Virus record (IMG/VR): IMGVR_UViG_3300024255_000043
Span: 1-48,831 of that record
Strand: one strand, 5' to 3'
DNA: 48,831 nt
DNA from: a virus
Shown here: piece by piece, positions 17,473-26,809 of the stretch
Layout of the letters: each line of letters starts with the position of its first letter
Numbering within the stretch: the first letter of the stretch is position 1
Translations under genes and position numbers: made by a program
The notes under the pieces: generated by a model
Database searches by the model: none
Told to the model about the DNA's origin: nothing
Seen by the model: only the letters and a program-made list of their open reading frames with translations

Positions 17473-18747
17473 TTAAATCACAATTCGAATAACAGTTTCA
17501 GGAGTGCGAAGGCTTTCTCCCGCTTTATCGGCTGATCGAGCGTTGTACGCAGCCAGCTGATCAATGATCTCATAGCCTTCAACGCCGTCAACGTTTTGGA
17601 GATCGGCCTTAAAGCCGTCGAGACCTTGTTTGGTAACAGCGTGAATATTTTGACTTGCCTTCGAGATGAAGCCCAGTGCTTCCTCAGAATACGAGTTAGA
17701 ACCCACGAGACTGGCGTTTCGAGAAATGTAATCCGAAATGACTGTTGAATGGATGTGTCCGCAGAGGATGTGGGTAATGTTAATGCCCTTGGCAGCGTAC
17801 TTACCGATCATCGCTTGGACCTTCTTTTGGTCGGTGGCCGAGATCTGATGTCCGTGGATGCCCAGGAATGTTTGGTTATGTATCTTGAACACTACTTCGT
17901 TTGCCTCAAAGTCGTGGAAGCGCATGCCCTTGTCTTCAGTAGCCTCGAAGACTGCCTGGAGCATGGCGTAGATGGTGAAGTCATAGCTGTCTGTAGCTAC
18001 TACATCAACCCATCCCAGGTTGTCCTTGACGCGAGACTCGTTTCCAGTAACGCCAAAGCAGTCAATAAAGAAGTCCGACCGCAAGTCCGTGAGGAATTGC
18101 TTAAAGAGATGGACGGCAAGCAAGGTGGCACGAGCACGGTTTGTACTCATGGCCAGCAGCTCATCTAGGCGACGATCGGAATTGAGCAAGTCACCACCGA
18201 AGAACACCACGACACGCTCAGCGCCATAGGCTTTGCCGAGCAGCTTGGTCTTCTGAGCTAGAAGTTGCAGACGCTTAGCAGCTACCTCGAAGTCAAACCT
18301 GTTCGTTGGCAGGTTGACCAACTCATTGAAATGATTGTCAGAAAGATGCACCACAAGTGTTGCAGCGGCAGGATCAAGGCTGCCAGTACGCCTAGGACAA
18401 TCAGCAAGCCTGCTGCCATGCTTTTCAAGCTCGACAAGAATGGCTTCGCTGTAGGCTGAGACAGCGTTTTCGATTCGTGCGTGTTCTCTAAAAGATTTAT
18501 TCTCGATCCTGTTGCGATCTTGTAATGCTTGAGTTTTCTTGGCAAGTCGAACTGTTTCCGTCAGCAATTCGAGGTCGGGTTCAACAGTTCGTACCTCAGT
18601 CTTGATATATGACCTTAGTTGATTTGGCTTCGCCAGGTAAGGATGAGCGTCAAAAAGCGCTGTGGCTGCACCTAGGTAAGAGCCGTGCTCTTCGAACAAG
18701 GCTAAAACCTCTTCTCTTAGATGACTGATGGGGGTTAGATTTGTCAA
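17473..18747 (-). CDS. Metallophosphoesterase, 424 aa
   Basis: The C-terminal two thirds carry the calcineurin-like phosphoesterase motifs in order: D-N-H at 137-139, G-G-D at 184-186, G-N-E at 235-237 (usually G-N-H), H298 and H300 in GIHGH, and G-H-I-H at 330-333. These bind two metal ions. The N-terminal ~100 residues are helical and resemble a DNA-binding or adaptor region (HSYLGAATALFDAHPY...). In other phages such enzymes act as nucleases or RNA/DNA end processors. It lies directly downstream of the primase with an ATGA overlap, so a replication or recombination role is likely. Confidence 0.8.
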   Translation of the reverse strand: MTNLTPISHLREEVLALFEEHGSYLGAATALFDAHPYLAKPNQLRSYIKTEVRTVEPDLELLTETVRLAKKTQALQDRNRIENKSFREHARIENAVSAYSEAILVELEKHGSRLADCPRRTGSLDPAAATLVVHLSDNHFNELVNLPTNRFDFEVAAKRLQLLAQKTKLLGKAYGAERVVVFFGGDLLNSDRRLDELLAMSTNRARATLLAVHLFKQFLTDLRSDFFIDCFGVTGNESRVKDNLGWVDVVATDSYDFTIYAMLQAVFEATEDKGMRFHDFEANEVVFKIHNQTFLGIHGHQISATDQKKVQAMIGKYAAKGINITHILCGHIHSTVISDYISRNASLVGSNSYSEEALGFISKASQNIHAVTKQGLDGFKADLQNVDGVEGYEIIDQLAAYNARSADKAGESLRTPETVIRIVI

Positions 18748-20396
18748 TGGGGCTCTGGTAGAGTTTCCTTTTCTAGTATATCACATAGAGGTGGTTCGGT
18801 TGCCATTATTTGAGAAATATGTTCAATGACGCCATCACTGGTGTCGACAATAACATTAGGGCGCACCAAGGTCCTGAGCTGATTCAGGTAATGGGGTTCA
18901 GCCACTACTACGAGTGCCATCACAGAGTGAGGGGTCAGGTCGATAGTAGATACCTCTTCTAGTTCCATGAGACGTTTCACTAGCCATCGAGTGGCTGGGC
19001 CTTCGACCTTGTCAAGCAATGGTCTCAACTGATCTCGGAGCCCTGGGCAATGGACGTAAAGACGCAGCATTCTACGTTCCACTGCCGTACGAATCTCGTG
19101 AGGCTCTCTGGGCGTCCACGAAGAGGTGGGAACTTCTATTCGTCCTCGTTCCCATTGTTTTGCGATCTGTCCTGCTTCCTTAGCGTTTTTTGATAAAGCA
19201 CGAGAAGCTTTATCGATGTAGTGAGTTCGCAGGGCTTTGCTTTGCAGGCTATTGATCAGAGATTTGAGTTGTTCCTCAACCGCTATTACCATTGAATTAT
19301 TCTCAGGGTCAAGCTCTGCTACCCAATGATCAATGATCCAATCAAGCCAGGATGGAGCTGATGCGATGTAGGAGTAAAGATCATCACCTGAACGAATGAT
19401 CTCGTCAGGATCTTTACCTTCTGGTAGTTTTGCGATATTGATATTAATCTTACCTTTTGAAGCCATCATGCCTGCAGCGCTTATGAATTGCAGCGCGGCT
19501 TTTTTGCCTCCATGGTCCCCGTCATAGCAAAGAACAAAGTTCTTAACGCTGCGAGCTAATCTCTCAAGAACAAAGAGCTCAGGGGCTGCAGTACCCTGCA
19601 TTGCGACCACATTCCTGATACCTGCTTGCCACATGCTTACGACGTCAAGATGGCCTTCAACAAAGATTATGGATCCAGCTTCTCTCGCGGCTTCCATGCC
19701 TCTATACTCGTTAAATACAAGGCTTTTTTTAACAAAAAGATTACTTTCCGGGCTATTTTTGTATTTTGGTTGCTGATCTTTCTTTGAGGATCGGCCTGTC
19801 CATCCTACCAATTCATTGCGATGGTTATAGATCGGAATTGTTATCCGACCACTAAAGACTCCTCCACTCTTACTTGACAGTTGATCATATTCTTCTTTCG
19901 TGGTATTAAACCTGTTATCAAACCCAAGGCCGAATTCGCGAGCAGCCTCTGGACTTATGTCGCGAGCCTGTAGAAGGCCTCGTATCCTACCAGCTTTTGG
20001 GTTTCTGATATTTAGCTTAAATTCTCCTTGAACGTGTTCCAAGCGCTGAATATCCTTGGCTCTCTCTGCCCGCCGTTTTTTCTCAGCTTCTGGGTCGACG
20101 TTGTCCTTTTCGACTTGGATACCCAGTACAGCAGCCGCAAAATCTACTGCGTCAGGAAAGCTCATCCCCTTTTTCTTTTGGATGTAGCCTATGGCGTCTT
20201 CATGCGCTCGACAGCAATGGCAGAAGCAAAACCCTTTCCGGTCACTTATAGTCAAGGATGGGTTAGTGTCCTCATGCCAGAGGCAGAGCGTAGTAAATTC
20301 GTGCCCTATCCTTTTCAGGGGGGCACCTGTTGCTTCGATCACAGCAGAGATTGGCGCCGCCTTGATCTTTTCGAGAGTTGATGTTTTTATTCCCAT
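18744..20396 (-). CDS. dnaG: DNA primase, DnaG type, 550 aa
   Basis: Makes RNA primers for phage DNA synthesis. The zinc-binding domain is seen at residues 38-62 (C-L-W-H, then F-C-F-C-H-C-C). The Toprim domain follows: IIFVEGHLDVVSMWQAGI near residue 240 (the acidic E), and VLCYDGDHGGKKA with the D-x-D pair. The C-terminal ~150 residues are helical, as in DnaG helicase-binding domains, and would contact the DnaB helicase (32953-34677). A TATACTG element ends 6 bases before the ATG, so the transcript may be nearly leaderless. Confidence 0.9.
   Translation of the reverse strand: MGIKTSTLEKIKAAPISAVIEATGAPLKRIGHEFTTLCLWHEDTNPSLTISDRKGFCFCHCCRAHEDAIGYIQKKKGMSFPDAVDFAAAVLGIQVEKDNVDPEAEKKRRAERAKDIQRLEHVQGEFKLNIRNPKAGRIRGLLQARDISPEAAREFGLGFDNRFNTTKEEYDQLSSKSGGVFSGRITIPIYNHRNELVGWTGRSSKKDQQPKYKNSPESNLFVKKSLVFNEYRGMEAAREAGSIIFVEGHLDVVSMWQAGIRNVVAMQGTAAPELFVLERLARSVKNFVLCYDGDHGGKKAALQFISAAGMMASKGKININIAKLPEGKDPDEIIRSGDDLYSYIASAPSWLDWIIDHWVAELDPENNSMVIAVEEQLKSLINSLQSKALRTHYIDKASRALSKNAKEAGQIAKQWERGRIEVPTSSWTPREPHEIRTAVERRMLRLYVHCPGLRDQLRPLLDKVEGPATRWLVKRLMELEEVSTIDLTPHSVMALVVVAEPHYLNQLRTLVRPNVIVDTSDGVIEHISQIMATEPPLCDILEKETLPEPH
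18773..18785 (-). promoter_or_regulatory. TATACT-type promoter inside the primase 3' end
   Basis: TGTGATATACTAG, about 25 bases before the metallophosphoesterase ATG. It allows expression apart from the primase. Confidence 0.45.
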
Positions 20397-20401
20397 GCCG
20401 T

Positions 20402-20412
20402 CAGTATAGCAC
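20402..20412 (-). promoter_or_regulatory. TATACTG-type promoter of the primase gene
   Basis: GTGCTATACTG ends at 20402, 6 bases before the ATG at 20396. With normal spacing, transcription would start at or next to the A of the ATG. Confidence 0.5.
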
Positions 20413-20413
20413 C

Positions 20414-21148
20414 TCAGAACAGAGACGCCTGGACTCTCCCGCCGCCAAAGTCTTTAATTCCATCTTCGAGTTGGATTTCGACCTCGCTCCAGTCAGTTGC
20501 GTGGCATCCTGAGGCGTCTAGAAGGGCGTCTACTGATCGAATAGGTATTCGACTGCCAGTGCCTGACAGATAGACTTCCATATTATCAAGGATGCTTTGG
20601 TGCTCTTCTGCGACTGTTTCGATGGCTTTGGATGCAATGTCTAGGTACATCTGAGCGAAGTCCATCTCAGACGCTTCTAGAGGTTCTGTAGGCTTTGCCT
20701 GTTCCTTTAGTTCAAGGGGCGGGCCAGAACACACTTTTCTGGTTTCCAGCCAGTCTTCCTTGCTGATGCCTAGTTCCTCAGCTACTTCCAGGTCACTGGA
20801 ACCTCTGTATAACAGCTTGCGTCCTCGAACCCATTGCTCACGCATTCTATGAGGCAGGCGCATCGAATAGGTTCTATCCCTGATGTAGTGCAGTAGTTCG
20901 CCACGAATTGTAGGCACCGCCAGGCTAGAAAATCTCATAGTTCTACCTGTTGTAGGGTTAATCCTTTCGGGGTCATACCTGTAGGCGGCTTTGCACAGTC
21001 CTTCAAAGGCAACCGATTCCAACGTATGGTAGTCAAGTTGTGTTGTGCGTTGCATTCGCCAAGCCTCGCGCCGAGCCAGATTCAGGTTCTCTTCTGCAAG
21101 TTTTTGGTGCTTACGTTCCATCCTAAAAACTTGAGGTTTTCTAGCCAT
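20414..21148 (-). CDS. Sigma-70 family protein, SigB/SigF/SigG-like, 244 aa
   Basis: Binds RNA polymerase and selects promoters. Region 2 spans about residues 20-90: LARREAWRMQR, then FEGLCKAAYRYDPE (core-binding and -10 helices) and AVPTIRGELLHYIRD, the hallmark of alternative sigma factors related to SigB/SigF. Region 3 follows (RLPHRMREQWVRGRKL, then DLEVAEELGISKEDW). The last 90 residues do not show a normal region 4 helix-turn-helix, so -35 contact may be lost or altered. That fits the extended -10 promoters without -35 found here. It lies between TerL and the primase, with its own TGGTAAAAT element upstream. Confidence 0.8.
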   Translation of the reverse strand: MARKPQVFRMERKHQKLAEENLNLARREAWRMQRTTQLDYHTLESVAFEGLCKAAYRYDPERINPTTGRTMRFSSLAVPTIRGELLHYIRDRTYSMRLPHRMREQWVRGRKLLYRGSSDLEVAEELGISKEDWLETRKVCSGPPLELKEQAKPTEPLEASEMDFAQMYLDIASKAIETVAEEHQSILDNMEVYLSGTGSRIPIRSVDALLDASGCHATDWSEVEIQLEDGIKDFGGGRVQASLF

Positions 21149-21162
21149 TGGATGTCATCTTT

Positions 21163-21171
21163 GTTAGATAC
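21163..21171 (-). promoter_or_regulatory. Extended -10 promoter TGGTAAAAT
   Basis: TGGTAAAAT on the minus strand about 15 bases before the sigma gene ATG, in the end of the TerL-sigma gap. The same TGGTAAAATG sequence occurs on the plus strand before the replication operon (31978-31986). Confidence 0.45.
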
Positions 21172-21174
21172 ATT

Positions 21175-23721
21175 TTACCATAACCGCTGATGAGGGACAT
21201 CTAGCAGGGGAGTAGAGCCTCGTCCCCAAACCACCGAGGTGATCGTAGGTGGAGTTCTTTGTACCATGTAATTTAATCCCATAGACAGACTATCAACCAT
21301 GTCATCGTTTTTTGATGCAGGGAATAAGTTAAATTCGTTAATAAACGCATCCAACCATGGGGCGGTATTTGGTAGATAAACATTACCCGCCTCCACCATC
21401 GGCACAATTCCCGAAGCTCTTGATACCTTGCTACCATTTCCTTGCGGTTTCCAACCAACAAGACCTGGAACTTTTTTGTACATCATTTGGTGTACAGCAA
21501 AGCCGTTAGCAGCAAGCTCGATGATAGTTCCATTTAGTTGGTGCTGTTTATACATTCGAGCAATCATGGCCATCGTGCCGATAACATCTAGGCGTTGGCG
21601 CACCATGTCAAGGATGTAAAATTGCGAAGCTGCCTGACCAATAACTGTACCTACCACATAGTCACTCGTGTTGTTGTTAGTAAAGTTACAGTCGACCGAT
21701 AGTATTACTTGTTGGAATAATGGCAAATCATCGTCGCCCTTATAGTACTGCCACCACGTTGGGTCAAACATGTTACCTCCCTCGGGGGCAGGCCTCTGTT
21801 GATATAGAGACGCGAAGTCCCTGCTAGACATTTCTCTCGTCTTAAACAGTTCATGCTTGGTCCAGCCTAACTGAGGGCAGAGCGGTTCATCAATTTCAGT
21901 TCGCCAATCAGGCATAACATCACAACCTTCTGGCAAAGCAGGGCGAGAATCGGGGTCTTCGTAAAGAGCTGGAAGATCTACGATAGTCCATCCTTCACGA
22001 GACTCAGGGCTGACTTCTTTCTCTTTGTCAAGCAGGTAACCGATTAGGTCATTCTCGCTCCATCGCGTCTGAATAATCACAATAGCAGGAGGTTTACCGT
22101 CAGGAGTGACGGTGCGACGAGAGTAAAAGTCAGAGGTATACCAGTTTTGAAGCTTCTGCATAACTCTCGTACTTTCAGCTTCCGATCGGCCTTTTACGGG
22201 ATCGTCCATAATCAAAAGGTGACCTGTTCGACCAGTGCATGCACCCTCAACGCCAGCAGCCCATAGGCCACCACCAGCATTGGTCTTCCAGTAATTCACC
22301 GCTTTGGAGCTTTCATTCAGAAGACCTCCGCCTTCTTTAAAAAAGCTTCTAGCTTCGCCAGAGAATCCTTCTGCCATCTCTCCAGAATATGACGACAGAC
22401 CAATCGTGCGATCTGGGTGAGCTAGCAGGTATGCTGCAGGAAGAAGTCGGGAGGCTAGTTGGGAATTGTGAGTAGGATTTAGTTTCTTCCCTACAAGATA
22501 AAGGCCATCGGGCGAAGATACTTGGATGCACCGTCCCATCTCCCCGTCGAGCGTAACTTCCGCAGAGACAATTCCAATTCGACGGCGGACAGCGTGGCGC
22601 TTGACGCGCTTGCGTTCAAGAGTGCAAGGAATTTCAAGATTGGGTTGGAAGCCAACAGTATAGACCGTGGATTTACCTTGAATGCCACTGCTCGACAGAC
22701 AGGGCTCCTGTGATGTCAGGCAAGGGCGGAACCCCAAGGTAGTGCAAAGGTCCATAATCTCTCCTGCAAGTCTCTCAGAGGCCGTCACAATGCGTGCTCG
22801 GCCCGTCTTAGGACACATGCTCCCATCCGTGTCCATCAGGCCAGCCAGGAGGCGCAGGCGCTGGGGGATAGAAGAGCGAAGGTACTCTGCAGGGATGTGC
22901 TTATTTTTACGCAATCCAAGGTGCTTAAGCTCGCCGCTAAATCGCCCATTTCCACCCGTTCGCAGACCGTCCAAGCGGTAATACCAGACACCTGTCGTTT
23001 TATGTTGAGACTTACTGGTGATCTGGTACCCGCAAGCCTCGACAGCATCTGCGATCGCGCTGTCGGACTCGGGGCCGCAAAACAGGTTTGTACTCGCTGT
23101 GCCATCACCCAGCCATACGCCTAGGACATACGGGTCCATGGTTAGGTCCTTGCTGTCAAACTGCACTGCCTCAGTGTCAGGTAACTGGTATCGGGCACGC
23201 TCCTTACCAAGCTTACTCCATTCGACTAGCTCACTGGTTTCGACTGTCCGCCACTTGGCCCGTCCTCGATCGTAAACGGTCCATTCGTGATTCAAATGGC
23301 ACTCAATCGTCTCGCCATTGCCGACGTGAACGAGGGCATTCGATTGCACCTCTGGAGAGAGGGCTTCAACCTCAATCTGGCGACCAGAAGGGTGGAAAAC
23401 CCTGTCACCGACTCGAAGCTGGCCGTGAGTCGTCCAACCGTTTGTGGTCAGAATTGGAGTGGAATGAGCTGCGAGCTTGCCATGGCGAGGCGGGCACTGG
23501 ATGATTAAACGGGTGCAGGTGCCGTCAATAACACGCTGAAGCTGTTTAATCAGCTCTGCATGTACTTTGTAAAATCGATAATTTGGATTGACTTTTTTTA
23601 TGAATTTCCATAAGATAACCCTTTCGGCTTTCTTTACAGATTTCTTCGCTTTTACGTCTTTGACTAGATCACTGCCTGAGGCGGCGTAATCAAGAAAGTC
23701 CTTTCCTGCTTTGCTTGCCAT
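21175..23721 (-). CDS. terL: Terminase large subunit interrupted by an intein, 848 aa (511 aa after splicing)
   Basis: The packaging motor ATPase and nuclease. The Walker A loop (C-P-P-R-H-G-K-S) is split after its lysine by a 337-residue intein; the serine needed for ATP binding is the +1 residue. After the intein come the adenine-side segment, Walker B (L-L-I-M-D-D-P), the coupling region, and the nuclease domain with D-C-N-F near I-L-S-V-D-C-N-F and later aspartates (DDMVDSL). Spliced length (about 511) fits TerL. The ATG at 23721 follows GAGGAT; a TTG two codons upstream is less likely. It overlaps TerS at its start region. Without splicing the ATPase cannot work. Confidence 0.92.
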   Translation of the reverse strand: MASKAGKDFLDYAASGSDLVKDVKAKKSVKKAERVILWKFIKKVNPNYRFYKVHAELIKQLQRVIDGTCTRLIIQCPPRHGKLAAHSTPILTTNGWTTHGQLRVGDRVFHPSGRQIEVEALSPEVQSNALVHVGNGETIECHLNHEWTVYDRGRAKWRTVETSELVEWSKLGKERARYQLPDTEAVQFDSKDLTMDPYVLGVWLGDGTASTNLFCGPESDSAIADAVEACGYQITSKSQHKTTGVWYYRLDGLRTGGNGRFSGELKHLGLRKNKHIPAEYLRSSIPQRLRLLAGLMDTDGSMCPKTGRARIVTASERLAGEIMDLCTTLGFRPCLTSQEPCLSSSGIQGKSTVYTVGFQPNLEIPCTLERKRVKRHAVRRRIGIVSAEVTLDGEMGRCIQVSSPDGLYLVGKKLNPTHNSQLASRLLPAAYLLAHPDRTIGLSSYSGEMAEGFSGEARSFFKEGGGLLNESSKAVNYWKTNAGGGLWAAGVEGACTGRTGHLLIMDDPVKGRSEAESTRVMQKLQNWYTSDFYSRRTVTPDGKPPAIVIIQTRWSENDLIGYLLDKEKEVSPESREGWTIVDLPALYEDPDSRPALPEGCDVMPDWRTEIDEPLCPQLGWTKHELFKTREMSSRDFASLYQQRPAPEGGNMFDPTWWQYYKGDDDLPLFQQVILSVDCNFTNNNTSDYVVGTVIGQAASQFYILDMVRQRLDVIGTMAMIARMYKQHQLNGTIIELAANGFAVHQMMYKKVPGLVGWKPQGNGSKVSRASGIVPMVEAGNVYLPNTAPWLDAFINEFNLFPASKNDDMVDSLSMGLNYMVQRTPPTITSVVWGRGSTPLLDVPHQRLW
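22465..23475 (-). mobile_element. Class 3-like intein with LAGLIDADG endonuclease, inserted in the TerL Walker A loop
   Basis: 337 residues from Leu83 to Asn419 of TerL. The first residue is leucine, so the usual Cys/Ser/Thr nucleophile is absent. The three marks of class 3 inteins are present: Trp in block B (L-N-H-E-W-T-V), Cys in block F (M-G-R-C-I-Q-V) and Thr next to the terminal His-Asn in block G (N-P-T-H-N, then +1 Ser). Between the blocks lies a LAGLIDADG endonuclease with two dodecapeptides (VLGVWLGDG near residue 200 and LLAGLMDTDG near residue 293 of TerL). Class 3 inteins are known mainly from phage terminases and DnaB helicases. The splicing prediction is strong; activity is inferred. 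Confidence 0.85.
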
Positions 23722-23723
23722 GA

Positions 23724-24365
23724 TCAATCCTCGTCTAGTGGAATTTCGTAAGCTTCGTCAACCTCTTCTCCGTCAATAATCTCAACAGCAACCTCTTCGA
23801 GTTCGTTGTCAACGACTTCCATTAGTTGGCCTACACCAAGTGATGTCGCCCAGGCCTGACGGCCACTGTCGGAGATGTTAGAAGCCGCCCTGAGTAGTCC
23901 CGAAACTAAGCCCATGGGAATTGCCTCGTCTTCATCTTCCGCCTTCTCTAGGCGCTTCTGGATGATTCTTACGATGTCACTCGACACGTCCATCATGTTA
24001 CGGGCCTGGTCTTCGTTCGCCTGGCGAAAATCATCGATAGCCTGGCGCTGACGAGCTCGTTCGATCTTCTGCGACTGTTTGAAAACAAGCTCCATCTCCC
24101 TGCGATCATAAGAGGCCACTCGCCGTTCCCAGCCGAAGCGTTTTGCCCACTGATTAACCGTTCCCGCTGACACCTCGATATAGACCGCAGTTGAGGGGAT
24201 ATCCCTGTGCTTGCCGCAGTTCAAATAATACAAAAAGGCCTTGTATTCCTTCTCGTTTTCATGTCTACCAGCGTCTCTTACCCGATAGCCTCGAGTGAAT
24301 GCCCAGATAGGCCCTGGCGCTACCTCTGATTGAACCTCTTTCCAGGAGCCAGGGTCATTGTTCAC
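23724..24365 (-). CDS. terS: Terminase small subunit, 213 aa
   Basis: Recognises phage DNA for packaging. Near residues 60-80 (YIEVSAGTVNQWAKRFGWERRVASYDRRE) there is a helix-turn-helix typical of small terminase subunits, where a W-x-x-R-F-x-W segment follows a recognition helix. A long charged coiled coil (residues 85-150) and an acidic C-terminus that could contact TerL follow. It starts at GTG 24365 after GGAGAGG and sits immediately upstream of TerL. A TTTGGCATACTAG promoter and a terminator hairpin precede it. Confidence 0.75.
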   Translation of the reverse strand: MNNDPGSWKEVQSEVAPGPIWAFTRGYRVRDAGRHENEKEYKAFLYYLNCGKHRDIPSTAVYIEVSAGTVNQWAKRFGWERRVASYDRREMELVFKQSQKIERARQRQAIDDFRQANEDQARNMMDVSSDIVRIIQKRLEKAEDEDEAIPMGLVSGLLRAASNISDSGRQAWATSLGVGQLMEVVDNELEEVAVEIIDGEEVDEAYEIPLDED

Positions 24366-24481: not shown

Positions 24482-24586
24482 TCAGAACAGACCTGGAATG
24501 ATCTGACCAGTCAGGGCGTAAGCTCCAATTGCTGCGACGATACCCAGCATAGCGAGGCGACCATTTAAGAGTTCAGCGTTGTTCAT
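24482..24586 (-). CDS. hli: High-light-inducible protein (Hli), 34 aa
   Basis: A single-helix thylakoid protein of the chlorophyll a/b-binding superfamily. The whole signature is seen: A-E-L-L-N-G-R-L-A-M-L-G near residues 4-15 (the chlorophyll-binding E-x-x-N-x-R motif), a hydrophobic helix (IVAAIGAY), and L-T-G-Q-I-I-P-G. Phage Hli proteins protect photosystems or bind chlorophyll during infection and are among the best markers of cyanophages. This is a very short form. It has its own TGTGGTAAACTG promoter and lies next to TerS, among packaging rather than photosynthesis genes. There is no Shine-Dalgarno. Confidence 0.92.
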   Translation of the reverse strand: MNNAELLNGRLAMLGIVAAIGAYALTGQIIPGLF

Positions 24587-25906: not shown

Positions 25907-26809
25907 TCAGAAAGCGTCTTCTGTGGGCTCATCCAATATAACATGTCGATACCCAGAAGGCAACCCTAACTTCTTGATGGTAACTTCAGGGGCAGGCCAC
26001 TCCTGTCTTGTCAAGGAGTCTTTGTATCGCCGAATAGCGCTAACGGACTGGTTTTTGCCTTCCTGTAAGAAGTCTTCATCTGCTACAAGGATGTCCGCAA
26101 CATACGGGGGCTTCTTCTCGACAACAGCAAATTCAAATCCCCATTCGCCGCCAAAGGCGATCTCAGCGGCCTTGACGTAGAATCCAGATTGAAAGATGTA
26201 GCCAAGATCAACCGACTTCCAACCGAACTTTTCTACTTGAACTGCATCAGTAGTTTTCAAGTCAAGGATCATTCGCCTATCGAAATCGACGCGATCGAGG
26301 CGAGCTTTGCATGGAACACCTTCCCACTCAAAGTAAACCGAGACCTCGTTGTGCCTAATGTAATCGGGCTGTGAAGGGTCGAAATATGCCACCCGTTGCA
26401 GACTAGCAGTCATGCCTTCTACTGCGGCATAGTCGTCCTCTGAGAGACCTGTACGGCGGTCCAAAGGCTTGCCGTCTGGATATAACAATGCTTCGAGGTC
26501 TGACTTCTTTGCGGACTTCTTATAGGCAATCCCTTTACTGTCCAGGGCTTCTCTTATTTCAGGCACTGTTAAGTCCAGCTTTTCCTTAGATCTGTCGAAG
26601 TACGATGCGTCAAAAGCCTTTCTGCCATCCAGAAGCAAGGTATGAGCAGCTGTGCCCAGGGCCATCGCGGGAGTATTTATTCGTTTTTCTTTCAATTTCG
26701 CCTGATAATGGGCTGAGCTCTTCAGGATATGCTTGAGAGAGCTTTGGTTCAGTCCAGGAGCTCTGCGGTATTCAAAATCTGACTCGTTGTAGCGAACCTC
26801 AAACGTCAT
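25907..26809 (-). CDS. RecE/Cas4-like PD-(D/E)xK exonuclease, 300 aa
   Basis: A 5'-3' double-strand exonuclease that makes single strands for Bet. Visible are ALGTAAHTLLLDG near residue 50 (the G-x-x-x-H motif), then PCKARLDRVDF with the catalytic D and ILDLKTTDAVQ with the D/E-x-K centre (about residues 170-190), and LGYIFQSGFYVKA, the Q-x-x-x-Y segment of YqaJ/RecE nucleases. With Bet (30310-31182) it forms a complete phage recombination pair. A TATACTG promoter precedes it inside the end of the RusA gene. Confidence 0.82.
   Translation of the reverse strand: MTFEVRYNESDFEYRRAPGLNQSSLKHILKSSAHYQAKLKEKRINTPAMALGTAAHTLLLDGRKAFDASYFDRSKEKLDLTVPEIREALDSKGIAYKKSAKKSDLEALLYPDGKPLDRRTGLSEDDYAAVEGMTASLQRVAYFDPSQPDYIRHNEVSVYFEWEGVPCKARLDRVDFDRRMILDLKTTDAVQVEKFGWKSVDLGYIFQSGFYVKAAEIAFGGEWGFEFAVVEKKPPYVADILVADEDFLQEGKNQSVSAIRRYKDSLTRQEWPAPEVTIKKLGLPSGYRHVILDEPTEDAF

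Follow-up and report, generated by a model that had tools for sequence, protein, structure and literature searches.

The terL locus and its insertion

The stretch of DNA analysed here (the window) is a 48,831-base IMG/VR virus record in which the gene for the terminase large subunit, TerL, is encoded on the minus strand and carries an intein in frame (Table 1). Translation of window positions 21175-23727 (minus strand) showed that the Walker A loop of TerL, PPRHGK/S, is interrupted between Lys and Ser by 337 residues, the junctions reading ...IIQCPPRHGK / LAAHSTPIL...GRCIQVSSPDGLYLVGKKLNPTHN / SQLASRLLPA..., and that the reading frame is open across the whole of TerL, including the intein. The insert and all of the residues listed for it in a first-pass annotation of this DNA proved exact to the base. 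We place the start of terL at the ATG at 23721, which gives the MASKAGKD start common to S-CRES1 TerL; the TTG at 23727 chosen by the ORF tool was dropped, as the ATG start is the one that matches S-CRES1.

Table 1. Features of the terL locus in the window, and of the Ser(F:4) inteins in related loci (positions preceded by the locus).
Feature	Position	Strand	Evidence or remarks
terL (terminase large subunit), intein in frame	21175..23721	-	phrog_38 E 1.1e-90; Terminase_6C E 1.7e-17; TIGR01630
N-extein	23476..23721	-	Its last residues, PPRHGK (23476-23493), open the Walker A loop; alignment with intein-less TerL holds as far as Lys
Intein of 337 aa; a LAGLIDADG homing endonuclease lies within the HINT splicing domain	22465..23475	-	Exact absence in relatives; AlphaFold
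C-extein	21175..22464	-	Starts at the Ser of Walker A, which is +1 Ser (22462-22464); includes Walker B, the C-motif and an RNase H-like nuclease
Leu1 (CTC), first intein residue, not a nucleophile	23473..23475	-	Translation; Leu is commonest residue 1 of the clade
Block B His63-Glu-Trp65 (B:10 His, B:12 Trp)	23281..23289	-	Both invariant, 152/152 relatives
LAGLIDADG motif 1, PYVLGVWLGDG, catalytic Asp124	23101..23133	-	68 close relatives: Asp 64/68, Asn 4/68
LAGLIDADG motif 2, LRLLAGLMDTDG, catalytic Asp217	22822..22857	-	Asp in 68/68 close relatives; Pfam LAGLIDADG_3 above cut-off
Cys316 (TGC), block F:4, in GRCIQV, predicted initiating nucleophile	22528..22530	-	Cys in 147/152 relatives
Thr335-His336-Asn337 (G:5 to G:7), PTHN end	22465..22473	-	Thr 152/152, His 148/152, Asn 151/152
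terS (small terminase)	23724..24365	-	phrog_6299 terminase small subunit, E 2.7e-29; upstream of terL, as in S-CRES1 and S-CBS2
Ser(F:4) intein, terminase P-loop	L035:224-1231
Ser(F:4) intein, terminase P-loop	L037:1157-2164
Ser(F:4) intein, terminase P-loop	L041:2495-3499
Ser(F:4) intein, terminase P-loop	L031:2495-3529

The order and content of the genes for ThyX, TerS, TerL, a SigF-like factor, primase and class II RNR are shared with the Synechococcus phages S-CRES1, S-CRES3 and S-CBS2, and the TerL exteins are 66-69% identical to TerL of these phages. The source is a virus of cyanobacteria, from ocean or estuary, related to S-CRES1 and S-CBS2. Since the genomes of the three phages measure 71-74 kb, the record is probably a fragment. 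An ORF of 34 amino acids missing from the ORF list, MNNAELLNGRLAMLGIVAAIGAYALTGQIIPGLF, lies between the genes for TerS and ThyX (window 24482-24586, minus strand); judging by eye, we take it to resemble a high-light-inducible (Hli) protein, which fits a cyanophage origin. At 25907-26809 (minus strand) the window encodes a PD-(D/E)XK (DUF3799) nuclease, residues 72-107 of which also match HeH/LEM and the T4 endonuclease VII dimerisation domain. A record from another metagenome (IMG/VR 3300024261_001544) is 99.9% identical to the window over 3,436 bases (window 18178-21613) and ends before the intein.

The insert is a class 3 intein

The insert bears the class 3 signature throughout: position 1 is not Ser, Thr or Cys but Leu (CTC), Trp stands at B:12 (Trp65, two residues after block B His63) and Cys at F:4 (Cys316), Thr at G:5 is followed by His-Asn (Thr335-His336-Asn337), and the +1 residue, for which Ser or Thr is expected, is the Walker A Ser. 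Two LAGLIDADG motifs with their catalytic acids, Asp124 and Asp217, are present as in homing endonucleases of this family. The same signature rules out class 1, which calls for Cys, Ser or Thr at position 1 where the window intein has Leu, and class 2, which comprises KlbA orthologues with Ser(G:6) and Asp(F:4), the host here being a terminase and the corresponding residues His(G:6) and Cys(F:4).

A search of the PDB with the single sequence gave class 3 DnaB inteins at the top, with an E-value of 6.6e-8 for 6BS8 (the M. smegmatis DnaB intein), and Cys316 aligns with Cys(F:4) of that structure; alignment with class 3 inteins was a check proposed in the first-pass annotation. With a profile of 40 relatives, 6BS8 was matched at E 5.3e-20 and PI-SceI, via its endonuclease, at 8e-20, as against just 1.8e-6 for the class 1 intein gp41-1; the first matches to the splicing domain are the class 3 DnaB inteins 6BS8 and 6RIX. 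AlphaFold, run with a 40-row alignment, confidently predicts a HINT plus endonuclease fold (mean pLDDT 91.3, pTM 0.90), and Foldseek aligned this model with PI-SceI over both domains and with 6BS8_B and 6RIY over the splicing domain (TM-score by target 0.77-0.83). I-DmoI and PI-SceI are the fold matches for the endonuclease, which Pfam recognises as LAGLIDADG_3. As the insert matches 6BS8, a Gordonia phage intein and the intein of contig L001 alike, its likeness to inteins is not due to chance.

The nearest relatives of the window intein all carry the Trp-Cys-Thr (WCT) set or its W-S-T variant. An 89-row tree, in which residue 1 and F:4 were masked and which has no class 1 outgroup, places the window within a supported set of 59 inteins, most of them in terminase P-loops, separate from a mostly Ala1 group in helicases and at other sites. 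Signature, empty sites (see below), PDB matches and predicted fold thus bear out the earlier reading of a class 3 intein with a LAGLIDADG endonuclease that splits Walker A, and we have little doubt that such an intein, its endonuclease intact, sits at the Walker A K/S of TerL in a cyanophage related to S-CRES1 and S-CBS2. It is a genuine class 3 intein of a known family; what is new is the host lineage, a cyanophage terminase.

Empty sites, selection and mobility

The first-pass annotation had proposed a search for homologues with empty sites, and these were readily found. PPRHGKS is uninterrupted in TerL of S-CRES1, S-CRES3, S-CBS2 and the more distant PSS2, with no junction residue lost or gained, and the P-loop is likewise uninterrupted, as PPRSGKS or PPRIGKS, in nine more contigs (L203-L211) whose C-exteins are 61-63% identical. 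Within this TerL family, a close relative of the window intein was found in L001 and L002 alone, which are identical to each other over the gene. The window and L001 inteins share 87% protein and 77% DNA identity, as compared with 60% (N) and 68% (C) identity for the exteins, where synonymous sites are saturated; pS is 0.66 in the intein and 0.77-0.85 in the exteins, i.e. synonymous divergence is near saturation. The dN/dS ratio for this pair is ~0.06 for the whole intein and ~0.05 for each of the splicing and endonuclease parts, and both domains are under purifying selection.

An intein that is more alike than its carrier gene and sporadically present is as expected of a homing element, and the data are consistent with one that is mobile and functional. 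The exteins of L001 are 79-80% identical to the intein-less TerL of the S-CRES phages and S-CBS2. It should be noted that the extein tree is poorly resolved and that an AU test on the exteins did not reject window and L001 as sisters (p 0.28). For this reason we dropped the claim that horizontal transfer is proven, and vertical inheritance with several losses, instead of transfer, is possible.

Leucine is a usual first residue

The identity of residue 1 was surveyed by alignment-guided scans of viral contigs (80 loci) and bacterial and archaeal genomes (80 loci), plus phage records, which yielded 169 inteins with both ends mapped, or 152 once 90%-identical ones had been removed; as the relatives were found mostly by endonuclease-motif patterns and similarity, the counts cover inteins that carry an endonuclease. 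His(B:10), Trp(B:12) and Thr(G:5) are invariant among the 152, and Cys(F:4) is present in 147 (97%). Residue 1 is Ala in 80, Leu in 29, Gln in 18, Pro in 9 and Glu in 4, with others fewer, and a nucleophile occupies this position in two inteins alone (Ser in L037, Cys in L095). Among the 68 inteins at least 36% identical to that of the window, Leu is found in 29 (28 by alignment column), Gln in 17 and Ala in 8.

Leu1 had been described in the first-pass annotation as rarely listed. Judged against genomes, this does not hold: Leu is the commonest first residue in the clade (29/68) and second to Ala overall (29/152), and the census refutes any novelty of Leu1. All six Leu codons are used for Leu1 in the terminase P-loop clade, and the residue also occurs in cultured Gordonia phages. 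The accompanying worry, that a base-calling error at codon 1 lay behind Leu1, can be dismissed, because Leu1 recurs with six different codons in independently sequenced phages and contigs; Leu1 stands. An exact 26-mer across the intein junction had no match in any other viral contig. On the set of 59, Leu1 versus the other main states requires 16 changes, 8 of which are forced by well-supported branches, and these repeated changes indicate that residue 1 moves freely among non-nucleophiles, with Leu the usual choice. Since Leu1 is normal in this clade, a catalogue expecting Ala1 would miss or misplace many members.

Relatives with serine at F:4 and other unusual inteins

In four dereplicated relatives (L031, L035, L037 and L041) Ser replaces Cys at F:4, encoded by TCC, TCA, TCT and TCA, respectively; near-copies of these inteins occur in L042 and L182-L184. 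They retain Trp, His and Thr and lie in otherwise full-length TerL frames. The +1 residue is Thr in all four, as against 8 of 64 others (Fisher p 6e-4, relatedness ignored). On the tree the replacement appears as two changes (in L031, and in L035/L037/L041), and the well-supported branches alone allow one origin. The L037 intein combines Ser(F:4) with Ser1 and is 81% identical to that of L035, which has Leu1; judging from its residues, a return to class 1 initiation is possible. If the Ser(F:4) inteins splice, they would do so either as class 3 via an oxygen ester in a Ser-His-Thr triad or by slipping back to class 1, and both a Ser-initiated class 3 and a reversion to class 1 are excluded by the present definition of class 3. 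These relatives are more novel than the window intein, which keeps Cys and so has the ordinary form. We tentatively suggest, although we would not put it at even odds, that the terminase P-loop clade is a testing ground for a change of class 3 initiator, in which residue 1 drifts, with Leu and Gln preferred, and Cys(F:4) gives way to Ser.

Other unusual arrangements were observed among the relatives. TerL of L037, L102 and L052 is interrupted twice, by a class 3-like intein in Walker A and by another of class 1 type, with Cys1, close to Walker B or the C-motif, as exemplified by IVM/CLTGDTP...VVHN/TRW for a second intein. The L095 intein unites Cys1 with the full Trp-Cys-Thr set, i.e. the signatures of classes 1 and 3 together. 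The class 3 intein of L156 (Sphaerochaeta halotolerans) is degenerate, with Ala at F:4, a Thr-Cys-Ser end and no +1 nucleophile, and is probably dead or no longer an intein.

Proposed mechanism and alternatives

The mechanism that we propose, in which splicing chemistry, endonuclease activity and packaging dependence are all inferred, follows the class 3 splicing scheme (PMC5222942, PMC7664689). Cys316, grouped with His63 and Thr335 and packed by Trp65, would attack the Lys-Leu1 peptide bond to form the block F thioester branch; the N-extein would then be transferred from Cys316 to the +1 Ser, Asn337 would cyclise with the aid of His336 and release the intein, and an O-to-N shift would join the exteins, sealing PPRHGKS and restoring the P-loop. 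Leu1 would have no nucleophilic part in these events and would provide just the leaving amine. Spread of the element would be brought about by the endonuclease, which would cleave terL alleles without the intein at the codons for the P-loop. In mycobacteriophages, class 3 TerL inteins were found to splice rapidly in reporter tests, and Bethlehem TerL1-c to cleave the partner allele that has no intein (PMC5050341), which supports, by analogy only, splicing and homing of the window intein. As the insert sits between Lys and Ser, an unspliced P-loop would lack its Ser in sequence, and it is a reasonable inference that the packaging ATPase, and with it the motor, would be inactive until splicing.

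Position 1 lacks a nucleophile in class 2 as well, and the +1 Ser might accordingly attack the Lys-Leu1 bond directly, leaving Cys316 as a bystander. We regard this as highly improbable, given that class 2 consists of orthologues of KlbA in which residue 1 is Ala, G:6 is Ser and F:4 is Asp (PMC4031507), whereas the window intein has Cys at F:4, a residue kept in 147 of 152 relatives, together with His at G:6 and Trp(B:12). It is equally hard to credit that the insert is a pseudo-intein, or yields mainly cleaved products, with TerL made by another route: a single pseudogene has been described in class 3, Arth_1007 (PMC3196547), though it is without Cys(F:4) and His(B:10), whereas here the catalytic residues are all intact, dN/dS is ~0.06, the frame is open through TerL and the window, itself probably a fragment of a genome, holds no second intein-like ORF.

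Somewhat less remote, albeit still improbable, is the idea that the intein, which would splice by class 3 chemistry here too, is maintained because it sets the timing of DNA packaging as a post-translational switch, a role put forward for other inteins, in response to redox or another signal, rather than being a tolerated mobile element. The site is the ATP-binding loop of the packaging motor, and oxidation affects class 3 DnaB inteins that are initiated by Cys (PMC7664689, PMC6195587). Against this, the intein is dispensable, being absent from S-CRES1, S-CRES3, S-CBS2, PSS2 and nine contigs with the same TerL, and its intact endonuclease accounts for its persistence; moreover, published TerL inteins splice fast (PMC5050341), and such fast reporter splicing offers no evidence of a regulated switch. 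Nothing in this analysis supports a regulatory role for the window intein, and we retain the reading of a class 3 intein that would splice by the scheme above.

Significance and relation to known systems

The window intein is well founded but unremarkable, a further example of a type already known, and the gain from it is in itself modest. It consists in a corrected view of residue 1, at which Leu is normal in this clade, and in a complete class 3 intein from a cyanophage terminase whose close relatives include some without the insert, so that splicing and homing can readily be tested.

The best overall fold match is PI-SceI, the yeast VMA1 intein, which shares the two-domain HINT and LAGLIDADG architecture but is a class 1 intein with Cys1 and 16% identity. 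The mycobacterial class 3 DnaB inteins (6BS8, M. smegmatis DnaBi1; 6RIX/6RIY, M. chimaera DnaB1) have the WCT set, block order and HINT fold in common with the window intein; in contrast, they begin with Ala1, are mini-inteins without endonuclease and reside in a replicative helicase. Mycobacteriophage inteins share the TerL host, and TerL1-a occupies the same Lys/Ser-or-Thr P-loop position; the class 3 examples named in PMC5050341, TerL1-c and TerL1-e, proved able to splice, TerL1-c also cleaving its target, but both lie outside the P-loop. More similar are the terminase inteins of Gordonia phages (Zipp, Ali17 and others; gp2), which have the K/S P-loop site, Leu1, WCT, +1 Ser and LAGLIDADG motifs and are 39% identical to the window intein over all 337 residues, although extein family and host are different and the block B context is HPRHEW instead of HLNHEW. 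Closest of all are the inteins of L001 and L002 (IMG/VR 3300035145_002367 and 3300035135_002966), which occupy this site in a related TerL, with Leu1 and 87% identity, and whose exteins are nevertheless nearer to the intein-less S-CRES/S-CBS2 TerL (79-80%) than to that of the window (60-68%).
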